Positions 27,175-48,234 of a stretch of 64,000 nt of DNA are shown here, in pieces (within the stretch, counting starts at the first letter, position 1; each line of letters starts with the position of its first letter). A program made the position numbers and the translations under genes. The DNA is from Pelosinus fermentans DSM 17108 (GTDB lineage Bacteria; Bacillota; Negativicutes; DSM-13327): contig NZ_AKVN02000001.1 of NCBI RefSeq assembly GCF_000271485.2, forward strand, positions 872,001 to 936,000, given 5' to 3'. The notes below the pieces were generated by a model, which saw only the letters and a list, made by a program, of their open reading frames with translations, did no database searches and had not been told where the DNA came from.

Positions 27175-27177
27175 CGA

Positions 27178-27217
27178 ACACACCTGTCACTGCGTGCCAC
27201 CCCTCTCTAGGGGGGAA
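27178..27217 (+). repeat. Double-hairpin CCCCTC repeat, copy B
   Basis: CACACCTGTCACTGCGTGCC followed by ACCCCTCTCTAGGGGGGAATA. It has the CAC-tgc-GTG variable stem and a slightly altered second hairpin (AGGGGGG instead of AGAGGGG). It sits right after the PLP-enzyme stop. Confidence 0.8.
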
Positions 27218-27223
27218 TAAAAA

Positions 27224-28656: not shown

Positions 28657-28812
28657 ACGACTTTTAGTGAAAATATCCGTTAATGCAGTTGAGTTTAAGG
28701 TAAAATGAGAACTGAATGAGCAGATGGAACACACCCTGTCACTGCGTGCCAACCCTCTCCAGAGGGGAATAGTGAGGTTAAAGAATAGCCTATGTTGATG
28801 CTATGTCGATAG
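28653..28812 (+). repeat. Left copy of a diverged direct repeat, carrying an inserted CCCCTC element
   Basis: This region aligns with 31381-31500: TCAAACGACTTTT, ATCCGTTAAT, CAGTTGAGTTTA, TGAGAACTG, ATGAGCAGA and AATAGTGAGGTTAAAGAATAG occur in the same order in both. The left copy has 38 extra bases at 28730-28767. The two copies flank the Uma2, MntA-HepT and AbrB-PIN genes. The long hairpin that ends the right copy is broken here, with only its first arm kept. Confidence 0.8.
28730..28767 (+). repeat. Double-hairpin CCCCTC repeat, copy C (filled site)
   Basis: CACACCCTGTCACTGCGTGCC then AACCCTCTccAGAGGGG. It is flanked on both sides by GGAA. The homologous position in the right direct repeat (31453-31456) has one GGAA and no element, so this copy was inserted there or lost from the other repeat. 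Confidence 0.8.
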
Positions 28813-33582: not shown

Positions 33583-33623
33583 GACACACCCCGTCACCGC
33601 GTGCCACCCCTCTCTAGAGGGGA
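33583..33623 (+). repeat. Double-hairpin CCCCTC repeat, copy D
   Basis: GACACACCCCGTCACCGCGTGCC then ACCCCTCTctAGAGGGG and AATGGG. Variable stem CAC-cgc-GTG. It follows the manB stop by about 30 bp. Confidence 0.85.
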
Positions 33624-33648
33624 ATGGGAAAAACTATAGCCTCGGAAT

Positions 33649-34792: not shown

Positions 34793-34833
34793 AACACACC
34801 CCGACACTACGTGCCACCCCTCTCAAGAGGGGA
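34793..34833 (+). repeat. Double-hairpin CCCCTC repeat, copy E
   Basis: ACACACCCCGACACTACGTGCC then ACCCCTCTcaAGAGGGG and AATAG. It lies between galU and pgi. Confidence 0.8.
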
Positions 34834-34897
34834 ATAGAAAAAGCGGCAATTAATAATGAATGGGAAGTGTACAAAAATATAGGGAGGTTGTTGTCTA

Positions 34898-43654: not shown

Positions 43655-43748
43655 TGAACCGCGAAGGTCACGAAGAGATGCAAAGAACACGAAGGGATAT
43701 TATACTTATTTCTTCCTTACCCTTCGCTGCTTCGTATCTTCGCGGTTC
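43655..43748. repeat. GAACCGCGAAGGTCACGAAG hairpin repeat
   Basis: GAACCGCGAAGGTCACGAAG..AAGAACACGAAGGG at the left is mirrored by CCCTTCGCTGCTTCGTATC then TTCGCGGTTC at the right. It splits the DUF2922 and YvrJ genes, and a spurious frame through it begins with MNREGHEE-like codons. Confidence 0.75.
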
Positions 43749-43766
43749 AAATTTTCATCATTCCAA

Positions 43767-43806
43767 TTCCCCTCTAGAGAGGGGTGCCCCAAGGGCGGGG
43801 TGTGTC
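43767..43806 (-). repeat. Double-hairpin CCCCTC repeat, copy F (inverted)
   Basis: Read on the minus strand: CACACCCCGCCCTTGGGGC, ACCCCTCTctAGAGGGG, AATTGG. Variable stem GCCC-ttg-GGGC. It lies 30 bp before the YvrJ gene. Confidence 0.85.
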
Positions 43807-44062: not shown

Positions 44063-44104
44063 CATTCCCCTCTGGAGAGGGGTGCCCAAAGGGCGGGGTG
44101 TGTC
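44063..44104 (-). repeat. Double-hairpin CCCCTC repeat, copy G (inverted)
   Basis: Read on the minus strand: CACACCCCGCCCTTTGGGC, ACCCCTCTccAGAGGGG, AATGG. Variable stem GCCC-ttt-GGGC. It lies at the 3' end of the TSCPD gene. Confidence 0.85.
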
Positions 44105-44357: not shown

Positions 44358-44533
44358 ATTAAAAACCCCTTTATATTTTCTTTGCTGTACATTCCTCTAA
44401 GATACACTGAATTTCAATAGCTGTCTAGCCCTGCTATCGTACAATATCTGGTTATTTTCCTCCCTTGGCAGGATTTAGGCAAAAATCTGCGAATAAAAAA
44501 GTAATTGAGATTATTTTAAAGTGGAGTAATGCT

Positions 44534-46690
44534 GTGGAACATTTAGAAGGTACCGTAGAAAATATAATATTTCATAATACTGATAATGGTTTTGTTGTGT
44601 TTAAGCTAAAACCAGCCAATGAGAATGGCACTGTCGCTGTAGTCGGCAACATGCTGGTGCCTTTAGTGGGTGAACAGCTGGAGCTGACAGGAGAGTGGGC
44701 GGAGCATGCCCGTTTTGGTCGTCAATTTAAAGCAGCGAGCTTTAAAAAAGTCGCACCTGCCAGTGTGAAAGGCATCGAACGTTTTTTGGCCTCAGGTGCT
44801 ATTAAAGGGATCGGTCCAGCCATGGCGGCACGTTTAGTAAAGCAATTCGGCTTAGATACGTTGAAAATCATCGAAGAAAAGCCCAAGCGCCTGCAAGAAA
44901 TAGAAGGAATCGGCAAAAAGAAAGCTGAGGCGATTCATGATGCCTACTCCCAGCAATCGGAAATGCATGAAGTCATGTTATTCTTAGAAATGAATGGAGT
45001 AACAGGCGCCTATGCAGGCAAGATTTTTACTCAGTACGGATTTTTGGCAATTAGTGTATTACAAGAAAACCCCTATCGATTAGCGCAAGAAGTGCAAGGC
45101 ATAGGTTTTCGTACGGCAGATCAAATTGCCATGTCTTTGGGCTTAGAACGCAATCATGAGGAACGGATTACTGCAGGGATTGATTTTGCCTTGCTGCAGA
45201 TTTCCCAAGCTGGTCATTGCTGTGTACCAGAAGAAACTCTGGTACAGGAAGCTGCCAAGTTACTGCTGGTTGATCCCGTAGATGTAGCCAGGCATGTATC
45301 CTTATTAATTCAAGAGAGCCGATTATGTGTAGAAGATTTTCATGGGATGACTCTAATCTATCCCCGCCATTTATACTATGCGGAAAAAAGGGTAGCGGAG
45401 CGATTATTGCGTTTAAAAGATCGAGCCAAACAAGCCCCTGATGAAGATTTACCGGCTATTGTTGACAGCTGGGAGAAGCAATCAGGAATCACCTTGGCAG
45501 ATGCCCAGCGTGAAGCAGTATTATCATCGTTGCTGCATGGTGTTTTAGTCTTAACGGGTGGACCTGGTACAGGTAAAACTACCGTTGTACGGGGTATGCT
45601 GGATGTTTTAGAAAATCAGGGTTTTAAGCTGCTCTTGGGGGCACCTACCGGTCGGGCTGCAAAACGCTTAAGTGAGGCTACGGACCGGGAAGCAATGACC
45701 GTTCACCGGCTGTTGGAATCCACGGGGGGAGTTGAGGGAGCACCTTTATTCATGCGCAATGAGAATGAACCATTAGATGCAGAAGTAGTCATCATTGATG
45801 AAGTTTCCATGATGGATATTTCACTGATGAATTCGTTTCTTCAAGCGATACCAGATGGCTGCCGTGTCATCTTGGTAGGTGACGTAGACCAGCTGCCCGC
45901 AGTTGGTCCCGGATCGGTGCTGAAAGACATTATCCGCTCAACAACTGTGCCTGTGGTACGTTTGACAGAGGTCTTCCGCCAGGCTGGTGAAAGTATGATC
46001 GTTATGAATGCCCATCAGATTAACCGAGGGATGCTGCCTGACTTTAAAAGCAGCAAGGACTTTCAATTTCTTGAGATCAATGATAGCGATGCTGTTGCCG
46101 ATGCTATTGTAGACTTGTGTCATGAGCAGCTTCCAAAAGAAGGTTTTAATGTTTCCTATGATGTACAAGTATTGGCGCCCATGCATCGATTGGTGTGCGG
46201 TGTGGAGAATTTAAATAAGCTGCTCCAGCAAGCACTAAACCCAGAGAGAGAAGGAAAAGCATCGATCTCTGGTGCCAATCAGGTATTGCGGGAAGGCGAT
46301 AAAATTATGCAGATGAAAAATAATTATACCAAAGGGGTATATAACGGGGATATTGGTTTCATTACAGGTATTCAAAACGGCAGAGTAGCCGTTCGTTATC
46401 CAGAGCAGAATGTGATCTATGAACGGGGAGAGATTGATGAACTGCATCTTGCCTATGCCATGAGTGTACACAAAAGCCAGGGCAGCGAATATCCTGTAGT
46501 CATTATGCCCCTGATTTCAGGACATCATATTATGCTGCAGCGCAATTTGCTGTATACTGCTGTAACAAGAGCAAAAGAAAGAGTGGTCCTCCTAGGCAGC
46601 AAAGCTGCCCTCAACACTGCCCTATCCAACGATCGGACCAAAAAGCGCTATTCCCTCCTGGCAGAACGCCTGCGGGGAGAAGAATTGTAA
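44534..46690 (+). CDS. recD2: RecD2-type ATP-dependent DNA helicase
   Basis: A 718-residue SF1B helicase. The N-terminal domain has LEGTVENIIFHNTDNGFVVF, then helix-hairpin-helix repeats (IKGIGPAMAARLVKQFG, LQEIEGIGKKKAEAI). The motor has Walker A GGPGTGKTT, Walker B VVIIDEVSMMD, and the C-terminal YAMSVHKSQGSEYPVV and YTAVTRAKERV motifs. GTG 44534 follows GTGGAG and matches the usual N-terminus; a longer frame starts at TTG 44465. It unwinds 5'-3' and acts in DNA repair without RecB/RecC. Confidence 0.93.
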   Translation: MEHLEGTVENIIFHNTDNGFVVFKLKPANENGTVAVVGNMLVPLVGEQLELTGEWAEHARFGRQFKAASFKKVAPASVKGIERFLASGAIKGIGPAMAARLVKQFGLDTLKIIEEKPKRLQEIEGIGKKKAEAIHDAYSQQSEMHEVMLFLEMNGVTGAYAGKIFTQYGFLAISVLQENPYRLAQEVQGIGFRTADQIAMSLGLERNHEERITAGIDFALLQISQAGHCCVPEETLVQEAAKLLLVDPVDVARHVSLLIQESRLCVEDFHGMTLIYPRHLYYAEKRVAERLLRLKDRAKQAPDEDLPAIVDSWEKQSGITLADAQREAVLSSLLHGVLVLTGGPGTGKTTVVRGMLDVLENQGFKLLLGAPTGRAAKRLSEATDREAMTVHRLLESTGGVEGAPLFMRNENEPLDAEVVIIDEVSMMDISLMNSFLQAIPDGCRVILVGDVDQLPAVGPGSVLKDIIRSTTVPVVRLTEVFRQAGESMIVMNAHQINRGMLPDFKSSKDFQFLEINDSDAVADAIVDLCHEQLPKEGFNVSYDVQVLAPMHRLVCGVENLNKLLQQALNPEREGKASISGANQVLREGDKIMQMKNNYTKGVYNGDIGFITGIQNGRVAVRYPEQNVIYERGEIDELHLAYAMSVHKSQGSEYPVVIMPLISGHHIMLQRNLLYTAVTRAKERVVLLGSKAALNTALSNDRTKKRYSLLAERLRGEEL

Positions 46691-46712
46691 TGTTGCCTGC
46701 GAGAGAGTGACG

Positions 46713-46752
46713 ACACACCCCGCCTGCGGGCACCCCTCTCTAGAGGGGAATA
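46713..46752 (+). repeat. Double-hairpin CCCCTC repeat, copy H (left arm of pair 1)
   Basis: CACACCCCGCCTGCGGGC, ACCCCTCTctAGAGGGG, AATAGTTTTTAA. It faces copy I in inverted orientation 77 bp away. Confidence 0.85.
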
Positions 46753-46829
46753 GTTTTTAATCACCTTCTTAAAGAATGGATCAGTGAAACACTAAATGCA
46801 CACAATCCATCAGAAATGGGCTTTTTAAA

Positions 46830-46872
46830 ATCCCCTCTAGAGAGGGGTGGCGCGCAAGCGACGGGGTGTGTT
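46830..46872 (-). repeat. Double-hairpin CCCCTC repeat, copy I (right arm of pair 1)
   Basis: Minus strand: CACACCCCGTCGCTTGCGCG, CCACCCCTCTctAGAGGGG, ATTTTAAAAA. Variable stem CGC-tt-GCG. It lies 42 bp before the DUF559 gene. Confidence 0.85.
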
Positions 46873-46914
46873 CGTCGTTTCTTGCAAGTAAAAAGTATAA
46901 GGGGATGAAATGTT

Positions 46915-47322
46915 TTGTCTAAAGAAAAGATCATTTCATACAATCCTAAACTAAAGGAGCTAGCAAAACAGCTTCGTCAAAATAGTACTTTATCCGAGAT
47001 ATTACTTTGGCAGCAACTGAAAGGCAAACAAATAATGAATTATAGCTTTCACCGCCAAAAACCAATTCAAAATTATATTGTTGACCTCTTTTGCCATGAA
47101 TTAATGCTAGCAATTGAGATAGATGGAGTTACCCATAATGAGAAGATTGCCTATGATATACAACGACAAGAAAGGCTGGAGTCATTAGGAATTCATTTCT
47201 TAAGGTTTCATGATAGTGATGTAAAGAAAAATTTAGCAGGTGTAGTAGAAGCTATTAAAATGTGGATTTGTATGCATGAGGGAGATAACGGACACACCCC
47301 GCCTGCGGGCACCCCTCTCTAA
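46915..47322 (+). CDS. DUF559 (VSR/PD-(D/E)XK-like) endonuclease, C-terminus encoded by a repeat
   Basis: A 135-residue protein of the DUF559 endonuclease family. YNPKLKELAKQLRQNSTLSE then LLWQQLKGKQIMNYSFHRQ, ENYIVDLFCHELMLAIEIDG-like core (QNYIVDLFCHELMLAIEIDG) and LRFHDSDVKKNL are all family landmarks; D in IVDLF, E-x-D in AIEIDG and the preceding His/Arg are candidate metal-site residues. TTG start 46915, GGGG 10 nt upstream. The last dozen residues (GHTPPAGTPL) and the stop codon come from repeat copy J. The gene is bracketed by two inverted repeat pairs. Confidence 0.85.
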   Translation: MSKEKIISYNPKLKELAKQLRQNSTLSEILLWQQLKGKQIMNYSFHRQKPIQNYIVDLFCHELMLAIEIDGVTHNEKIAYDIQRQERLESLGIHFLRFHDSDVKKNLAGVVEAIKMWICMHEGDNGHTPPAGTPL

Positions 47323-47331
47323 GAGGGGAAT
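47291..47331 (+). repeat. Double-hairpin CCCCTC repeat, copy J (left arm of pair 2)
   Basis: ACACACCCCGCCTGCGGGC, ACCCCTCTctaAGAGGGG, AATAGTTTTTAA. It overlaps the 3' end of the DUF559 gene and supplies its TAA. Its downstream flank is identical to that of copy H. Confidence 0.88.
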
Positions 47332-47342
47332 AGTTTTTAAAA

Positions 47343-47386
47343 ATCCCCTCTAGAGAGGGGTGGCGCGCAGCGACGGGGTGTGTTCG
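47343..47386 (-). repeat. Double-hairpin CCCCTC repeat, copy K (right arm of pair 2)
   Basis: Minus strand: ACACACCCCGTCGCTGCGCG, CCACCCCTCTctAGAGGGG, ATTTTTAAAA. It faces copy J with only 11 bp between them. Confidence 0.88.
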
Positions 47387-47421
47387 TCGTACCCATGATT
47401 GCATAAGGAGGTTGCATTGGT

Positions 47422-48084
47422 GTGATTAGCAGCTATTGGAAGACCTTTTTGAATATCCTCTATCCTCCAAAGTGTCCTTATTGCAAAACCTTAGTGCAGG
47501 AACATGGAGCATGGTGCCAGGTCTGCTTATCCGCTATTTTGGCGGTTCGAGAAATTAATGTTCTGGAGCATCGGCTAAAATCCTTAGACTCCTGTCGCGT
47601 GGTATGCGAATATACAGGAGGCCTAAAGCGGATTATTCACGATATGAAATTTCGTCAACAAAAGAAATATGGGGTTCATCTCAATTGGCTAGTAACCAAC
47701 AGTAAACTGGCACATACATTTTCAATGATTGAGTATGTAATCCCTGTACCATTACATGCCGACCGTCTGCGGGAGAGGAGCTACAATCAGACAGAGGTTA
47801 TCTTTAAGGAATGGTCAAAAAAAGAAAAATTACAGTGGATGCCAGAACTGTTAGTACGTAACAGGCATACCATTCCTCAATGGGAGCTGACTCTAGCAAA
47901 GCGAAAGGAAAATATAAAGGGCGCGTTTATCGTTACGCGCCCTGAATTAGTGAAGGATAAACATATATTGTTGGTAGATGACATCATAACCACCGGCATT
48001 ACTCTGGATGAATGTGCCAAGGTCTTAAAAAAATCCAAAGCAGCATCTGTCCATGGGCTTGCCATAGCCAGTGGAGCAAGATAG
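47422..48084 (+). CDS. comFC: ComFC-type phosphoribosyltransferase
   Basis: A 220-residue ComF-family protein. An N-terminal zinc finger, PPKCPYCKTLVQEHGAWCQVC, and C-terminal PRPP motif LLVDDIITTG are diagnostic; the central part has PVPLHADRLRERSYNQTEV. GTG 47422 follows AAGGAGG. Members take part in DNA uptake in competent bacteria and occur widely in non-competent ones. No other com gene is adjacent; it sits between repeat pairs. Confidence 0.92.
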   Translation: MISSYWKTFLNILYPPKCPYCKTLVQEHGAWCQVCLSAILAVREINVLEHRLKSLDSCRVVCEYTGGLKRIIHDMKFRQQKKYGVHLNWLVTNSKLAHTFSMIEYVIPVPLHADRLRERSYNQTEVIFKEWSKKEKLQWMPELLVRNRHTIPQWELTLAKRKENIKGAFIVTRPELVKDKHILLVDDIITTGITLDECAKVLKKSKAASVHGLAIASGAR

Positions 48085-48091
48085 AAGGAAC

Positions 48092-48132
48092 GAACACACC
48101 CCGCCCGCGGGCACCCCTCTTTAGAGGGGAAT
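48092..48132 (+). repeat. Double-hairpin CCCCTC repeat, copy L (left arm of pair 3)
   Basis: GAACACACCCCGCCCGCGGG, CACCCCTCTttAGAGGGG, AATTAAG. Variable stem GCCC-gc-GGGC. It begins just after the comFC stop. A diverged fragment (GCGGGCACTTCTC..AAAAGGGAA) lies at 48159-48183 between L and M. Confidence 0.85.
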
Positions 48133-48191
48133 TAAGAGATCGCCTTCTTTCTTGCTTCTGCGGGCACTTCTCTTTAAAAGGGAAACCAAAA

Positions 48192-48234
48192 ATCCCCTCT
48201 AGAGAGGGGTGGCGCGAAGCGACGGGGTGTGTTC
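48192..48234 (-). repeat. Double-hairpin CCCCTC repeat, copy M (right arm of pair 3)
   Basis: Minus strand: CACACCCCGTCGCTTCGCGC, CACCCCTCTctAGAGGGG, ATTTTTGG. It ends at the stop of the HD-GYP gene. Confidence 0.85.

Follow-up and report, generated by a model that had tools for sequence, protein, structure and literature searches.

The 64,000-nucleotide stretch of Pelosinus fermentans DSM 17108 analysed here (contig NZ_AKVN02000001.1, positions 872,001 to 936,000), hereafter the window, carries a small DUF559 nuclease gene between recD2 and comFC, and both this gene and comFC stand between copies of a palindromic repeat. The original prediction, made by a model from the letters alone, read the order as recD2, H, I, DUF559, J, K, comFC, L, M and an HD-domain gene, with the repeat halves forming three inverted pairs, and a covariance model recovers the same order and the same pairs. 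The DUF559 gene and the repeats, which we consider together as a candidate mobile system, are laid out as follows in window positions.

44465-46690, recD2, left neighbour of the three inverted pairs (46712-48233), which have the HD-domain gene on their right
46712-46751, minus strand, half-element H, subtype A, with stem CCCCTCT/AGAGGGG, mini-hairpin GCC..GGC and tail GGGGTGTGT (covariance model, 62.3 bits)
46829-46872, plus strand, half-element I, subtype B, with mini-hairpin GGCGCG..CGAC (61.1 bits)
46829-47331, plus strand, proposed gene-bearing mobile unit from I to J (hairpin-tail-DUF559-tail-hairpin), by analogy with a duplicated unit in genome G061 and from orientation counts
46915-47322, plus strand, DUF559 (PF04480) small nuclease gene, 135 aa (3e-30), its last codons running into half-element J
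47291-47331, minus strand, half-element J, subtype A (53.9 bits)
47342-47384, plus strand, half-element K, subtype B (62.1 bits)
47422-48084, plus strand, comFC, apparently a resident bystander gene, which follows recD2 without these elements in three other Pelosinus genomes (G007, G005 and G004)
48093-48132, minus strand, half-element L, subtype A (58 bits)
48191-48233, plus strand, half-element M, subtype B (62.1 bits)

Each Pelosinus half consists of a CCCCTCT/AGAGGGG hairpin, a small GC hairpin that defines the subtype (GCC..GGC in A, GGCGCG..CGAC in B) and the GGGGTGTGT tail, in agreement with the two arm subtypes, left and right, that had been described ahead of a common tail. H-I, J-K and L-M each join one A to one B with tails outward. 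The six core halves score 53.9-62.3 bits (with E values of at most 5.2e-17 for the 64-kb window) under a model built partly from those same six halves. Folded as single-stranded DNA, J-K and H-I form long hairpins, and their pairing is not a product of chance because z is -10.9 and -9.6, respectively, with 0 of 200 shuffles equally stable. Two finer predictions also held: the 12 bases AATAGTTTTTAA are identical after H and after J, and J-K is shorter than H-I (about 92 versus 159 bp, a difference of about 67 bp). The claim that pairs bracket both genes is right as geometry, but the gene-bearing unit is I-DUF559-J, with hairpins outside and tails toward the gene; comFC, bracketed in like manner between K and L, looks like a resident gene. 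Matches of the J-K hairpin in Rfam were all sub-threshold, mostly to microRNA families, and were rejected.

Hairpins accompany DUF559 genes well beyond Pelosinus. A scan of a genome collection yielded at least 534 confirmed relatives, from which the best 80 named loci were kept; these were sorted into 25 labelled groups, including four of unclassified bacteria, and 73 were evaluable after seven were dropped at contig ends. A GC-rich hairpin lies within 200 bp of DUF559 in 64 of the 73, and on both sides in 35, compared with 19.3% (any hairpin) and 2.1% (both sides, 8 cases) for 374 control open reading frames in the same loci. In a matched permutation of 20,000 draws, the mean was 2.3 and no draw exceeded 6, against 33 of 71 observed. 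Loci of the related nuclease Vsr served as a control for gene family. In one bacterial class, 26 of 28 DUF559 loci have a hairpin, 17 of them on both sides (30 loci, 2 skipped), whereas the Vsr loci have none on either side (0/29; 30 best-scoring loci, 1 skipped). Ten loci from a plasmid collection, judged by the same 200-bp rule, include seven with a hairpin and four with hairpins on both sides.

Stem sequences vary by organism, yet most stems are followed by a tail that repeats the purine arm of the stem in mirror order. The tail was scored as a reverse-Hoogsteen third strand. Of the 69 loci whose hairpin lies no farther than 260 bp away, 52 score at least 0.7 for this arrangement (the window-type copy of P. 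fermentans, with its tail cut at 20 nt, scores 0.86). The mean score is 0.776, compared with 0.503 when tails are swapped among loci (0/5000 as high) and 0.595 for the parallel arrangement; tail sides for these scores and for the orientation counts were chosen by G/C runs, a choice that the tail-swap control shares. The hairpin nearest the gene directs its tail toward the gene in 48 cases upstream (8 away, 3 undecided) and in 29 downstream (14 away, 6 undecided). Each half is an intrastrand triplex motif, a hairpin with a G-rich tail that could serve as third strand. Covariation is uninformative about the structure in Pelosinus because the stems hardly vary.

The repeat sequence tracks that of the DUF559 protein, even between phyla. 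Similarity of protein and of repeat is correlated among all pairs (Mantel r 0.53) and among pairs from different groups only (r 0.41), with 0/5000 permutations as high in each case, although these tests, like the Mann-Whitney tests used, ignore phylogeny. For 51 of 69 loci, the repeat resembles that of the best cross-group protein neighbour more than background, and the Pelosinus stem and tail type recurs at loci in Nitrospirota, Lysobacterales, Bacteroidota, Verrucomicrobiota and Calditrichota.

Whole units occur at more than one site. G061 has two gene-bearing units, separated by 2.4 kb, with 99.5% identity over 557 bp; this identity begins and stops no more than about 10 bases from the outer edges of the hairpins, beyond which the flanking sequences differ. 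Three units lie within 14 kb in G117 (94-95% identical) and two in G109 (97%, one copy ending at an unread base), while G229 has two DUF559 copies 0.6 kb apart. Around several G061 units (L076, L209-L213), a GTTCCTGTGATTATA-like sequence was also seen, inverted on the two sides of some of them; these flanks are possibly a second layer of ends or a nested element.

Within Pelosinus, the recD2-comFC junction holds dimer-DUF559-dimer in G000-G002, a solo dimer without DUF559 in G006, another repeat in G005 and G004, and nothing in G007 and G003, where comFC begins directly at the recD2 stop, an abutment that may be a deletion. The repeat found in G004 and G005 (loci L064 and L066) belongs to a second inverted family (GAACCGCGAAGG..CTTCGCGGTTC, or ..CACAAAGACAC..GTGTCTTTGTGGTTC), which is also present at 43656-43748 of the window beside several half-elements. 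In another family of the class, a DUF559 unit of different subtype stands at the same junction together with a different repeat (L228, in G254 C15), and the site may therefore be used repeatedly. We regard both the association of DUF559 with hairpins and the mobility of the unit as well supported.

Besides the six core halves, the window contains six single ones, twelve full halves in all by the covariance model. Alignments of G000, G001 and G002 show that single halves differ among these genomes and that the differences include the element.

27177-27218, minus strand, single half-element (46.4 bits)
28728-28770, minus strand, single half-element, subtype B (53.3 bits)
33583-33625, minus strand, single half-element, subtype B (covariance model), in G002, absent from G001
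34793-34835, minus strand, single half-element, subtype B (covariance model), in G001, absent from G002
43766-43806, plus strand, single half-element, subtype A (covariance model), shared with G001; G002 has a deletion here, with no copy detected and perhaps a remnant of the tail
44064-44104, plus strand, single half-element, subtype A (covariance model), absent from G001 and G002

Copies are concentrated near the gene in Pelosinus. Outside the core, 10 of 13 in G000 and 11 of 14 in G001 lie within 100 kb of it (p 3e-12 and 6e-14 for even spread, in two genomes that share ancestry). Copies are also more numerous in the Pelosinus genomes that have the gene. Because a simple exact pattern undercounted decayed copies (0 in G006 despite its dimer), Pelosinus counts were redone with a covariance model, R1, which gave 19, 20 and 14 copies in genomes with the small DUF559 gene and 5, 3, 11, 4 and 2 in those without; R1 was built from DUF559-positive copies, which biases its bit scores, and perhaps these counts, against the other genomes. 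R1 detects no copies in two genomes from a different genus within the family. In family f11 (109 genomes), the median number of CCYYCCCC..GGGGRRGG hairpins is 13.5 in the 36 genomes that have DUF559 and 0 in the 73 that lack it, and among genera having both states the mean is higher with the gene in eight of nine, with one tie, in a comparison that ignores phylogeny.

The DUF559 protein of the window gives a near-full match to PF04480 (positions 2-106 of 109), and its structure is predicted with a mean predicted local distance difference test score of 83.6, the C-terminus, which reads into the repeat, being of low confidence. Among solved structures, Foldseek ranks NGO0050 (3hrl, 3.9e-7) first and the catalytic domain of I-Bth0305I (3r3p, 4.4e-4) second, with Vsr (1vsr, 0.047) much weaker; hmmsearch profiles likewise recover 3hrl (2.6e-28) and 3r3p (8.5e-5), so that both methods point to the EDxHD catalytic fold of 3r3p. 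A phage homing endonuclease family gives a weak match to DUF559 (4.7e-6), and PADLOC returns only a weak mREase_II match (1.2e-4). Residues invariant across 19 DUF559 sequences include R21, E28, W32, Q48, D57, E68, D70, G71, H74 and D81; the acidic and histidine residues among them (E28, D57, E68, D70, H74 and D81) do not align one-to-one with 3r3p. The nuclease bears a resemblance to I-Bth0305I, a homing endonuclease of the EDxHD type, and a fainter one to Vsr. Purifying selection maintains the gene, whose dN/dS (ratio of nonsynonymous to synonymous substitution rates) is 0.17 and 0.12 against two relatives, and it is the sole listed reading frame of at least 80 aa inside the I-J unit, which has no DDE transposase.

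DUF559 genes were also seen in other settings. On Picosynechococcus plasmids (L037 and L124) its neighbours on the two sides are DUF499 and DUF1156 genes; in Pseudanabaena (L039), a DUF559 match lies inside a 4.9-kb reading frame adjoining bacteriophage exclusion (BREX) genes, placing all three in or near defence-type loci. Passages of a Legionella study describe segments with a transposase and DUF559 as recombination hotspots (PMC12308824).

The DUF559 gene of Escherichia coli, ycjD, is present in 3365 of 5426 complete genomes and lies between sapF and fabI, the latter of which we take to be the gene formerly called envM. Triplex-forming repeats of the BoxC type, also called potential intrastrand triplex (PIT) elements, were already known in the 1990s. 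On the 3' side of ycjD, at a distance of about 250 bp, lies CCCCTCGCCCCTCTGGGGAGAGGGTTAGGGTGAGGGG, which is of the same type as the BoxC/TM (triplex motif) repeats in Table 1 of PMC4666352. The palindromes are not undescribed, as had been supposed; their class, that of intrastrand triplex motifs, has E. coli BoxC among its members (PMC4666352). The main text of that study, a survey of 2015, reports 23 copies in E. coli MG1655, pairing of A with B in five of five inverted pairs, triplex formation in vitro and instability at the sites; it describes no transposase or integrase near the E. coli sites, leaves their spread unexplained, cites Bergler 1992 on envM for BoxC, and contains no occurrence of ycjD, DUF559 or endonuclease. 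The E. coli version might also be read as a G-quadruplex, but this was set aside: the window type has too few G runs for it, and the mirror-triplex rule fits both. On the 5' side of ycjD (L035), a long perfect hairpin with a 19-bp stem (TCACCTCATTCTGACAAG..), unlike the 3' BoxC type, stands directly ahead of the gene. At the sapF-fabI site, ycjD alternates with the eef efflux operon (L109, L110; also in passages of PMC12817139), and E. coli offers no clean empty-site test because this operon fills the site in the one ycjD-less genome examined.

We consider it probable that the DUF559 gene and the hairpin repeats form one mobile system, similar to a REPtron and driven by a homing-type nuclease. 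Two halves set back to back (A + B, tails outward) would constitute a gene-less unit of about 90-160 bp, and two halves with tails inward would bracket DUF559 as a gene-bearing unit. By folding back, the G-rich tail may provide the third strand of a purine-motif triplex. Judging by fold, by architecture and by the clustering of copies, we infer that DUF559, as a small homing-type (Vsr/EDxHD-like) endonuclease, binds its repeat, cuts DNA and by cutting drives copying: it would recognise the sequence or fold of its own repeat, probably single-stranded or extruded and perhaps as a triplex, and would nick or cut at the repeat or at a target. Host repair might then copy the unit, often into nearby DNA; the gene could later be lost, while the repeats stay and decay. 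Local copying of this kind would explain the Pelosinus cluster and the neighbouring gene copies elsewhere, and the dispersed E. coli copies would be old. The original prediction had proposed DUF559-linked mobile palindromes resembling repetitive extragenic palindromic (REP) sequences and their REP-associated tyrosine transposases (RAYTs) but using another enzyme family. The paired flanks in many phyla, the cognate sequences, the presence of a unit at two sites and the clustering near the gene support it, though the role of DUF559 as mover is a step beyond them. A broader proposal is that DUF559 units make up a class of selfish element spread across the bacteria, with a nuclease that recognises intrastrand triplex DNA, and are the unrecognised source of E. 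coli BoxC/PIT repeats and of similar C-rich/G-rich palindromes in Proteobacteria, Bacteroidota, Cyanobacteria and others; on this we are evenly divided.

Several observations weigh against a DUF559-driven system. Of the 73 named loci, nine lack any hairpin in the 200 bp to each side, and two E. coli loci and a Neisseria locus have none by the same rule, their repeats being imperfect or farther off. Dependence of the repeats on the gene, which had been offered as a check, is borne out by the comparison of f11 genera but is incomplete: many DUF559-free genomes keep copies, among them Pelosinus (2-11 copies) and 19 of the 73 DUF559-free f11 genomes (at least 5 copies). E. coli genomes with and without ycjD are alike, with near-identical places averaging 4.2 in 37 listed genome rows and 3.9 in 22, respectively (2-6 in both), although this count is a rough proxy that needs 28 exact bases and leaves out one row (H125, a 41-base match off the locus). 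On one E. coli chromosome, two of 13 tail-motif matches lie in the ycjD 3' flank, and the others are dispersed, not local. Clustering is modest in eight other genomes of the class (13 hairpins in 149 kb of local sequence versus 16 in 476 kb, p 0.011), three of which have no local hairpins (G117, G201 and G262). Neither the recD2-comFC junction nor the aligned single halves, where the intergenic DNA is too diverged, displays a clean target-site duplication. Finally, passages of a report on Caulobacter tie a DUF559 protein to DNA damage in vivo and relay its authors' proposal of a mismatch-repair enzyme (PMC12907096); the damage itself fits an active endonuclease.

Alternatively, DUF559 may be a passenger caught between repeats that recombine among themselves or are spread by another enzyme. 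Bracketing of comFC, persistence of copies without the gene and the solo dimer of G006, which is what recombination between flanking repeats would leave at that junction, all accord with this idea, and Y1 transposase genes, candidates for such an enzyme, are present in all eight Pelosinus genomes searched. Yet none of the 12 Y1 loci examined (of 35 matches in Pelosinus) is flanked by the repeat, and a passenger would not be expected to be one gene family bracketed in many phyla when the related Vsr is so placed at none of 29 loci, nor to have a protein sequence that the repeat type follows across phyla. We therefore consider this explanation unlikely.

It is more doubtful still that DUF559 is a Vsr-like mismatch-repair or housekeeping endonuclease whose hairpins act as terminators or mRNA stabilisers around a gene that needs to be silent. 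The weak fold similarity to Vsr is in keeping with such a role, as is Caulobacter VsrA, a DUF559-domain protein that passages of PMC12907096 connect with a solitary cytosine methylase. This explanation leaves unaccounted for the many gene-less copies elsewhere, the lack of hairpins at Vsr genes of the same class and the presence of several DUF559 units per genome at different sites, and PIT elements are reported in the main text of PMC4666352 to be without terminator activity. That the recD2-comFC region is simply a hotspot gathering unrelated repeats, with clustering unrelated to DUF559, seems very improbable: the other repeat family in G004 and G005, the other-subtype unit in G254 and some residual copies near comFC in DUF559-free Pelosinus genomes would fit, but the same bracketing occurs at many other loci and phyla, and multi-copy DUF559 genes lie close together elsewhere in G117, G061, G109 and G229.

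If DUF559 and its repeats do form one mobile system, they would add to the known mobile elements a class that combines a metal-dependent homing-type nuclease with a triplex-forming end, and would probably be where the genome instability described for BoxC/PIT sites comes from. A candidate gene family can now be named for the spread of these repeats, with a prediction of which repeat pairs with which protein, and E. coli K-12, having ycjD as well as BoxC, allows the question to be tested. The repeats and the gene family are each known; the pairing of the two as a mobile unit did not turn up in the literature searched, which covers few subscription journals, and may be in print elsewhere. Judged from sequence, we rate the system as a new class that works most like REP/RAYT, because the defining features of REP/RAYT and of insertion sequences are not found in it, and, unlike the known EDxHD enzyme, it comes with no intron or intein.

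Comparison with known systems makes this placement clearer. According to passages of PMC3116915 and PMC3733652, REP sequences, their paired form (REPIN) and RAYTs share with the present system short palindromes in inverted pairs, a bracketed small nuclease gene, cognate families and two-subtype heterodimers. They differ in that a RAYT is a Y1 HUH transposase (Y1/TnpA_REP), whereas the window gene is a DUF559; in that the hairpin foot in the Pelosinus alignment has no GTAG/CGTC tag, and the repeats carry GGGGTGTGT G-rich triplex tails instead; and in that RAYTs are described as single-copy, whereas DUF559 genes are often multi-copy. I-Bth0305I and Vsr share with DUF559 fold and profile similarity, but the 135-aa DUF559 differs from EDxHD homing endonucleases in that it is not associated with an intron or intein and is without a long DNA-binding extension, and its gene is bounded by triplex repeats. 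As in miniature inverted-repeat transposable elements and remnants of the solo long terminal repeat kind, gene-less units share their ends with gene-bearing ones, and the solo dimer of G006 may be likened to these; the unit differs from them in holding no DDE transposase and in having no detected target duplication. The closest likeness of the repeats themselves is to BoxC/PIT/TM, which, by the main text of PMC4666352, have the same stem plus mirror tail, the same inverted heterodimers of type A and type B and a similarly wide occurrence, the Pelosinus version alone having a mini-hairpin between stem and tail.

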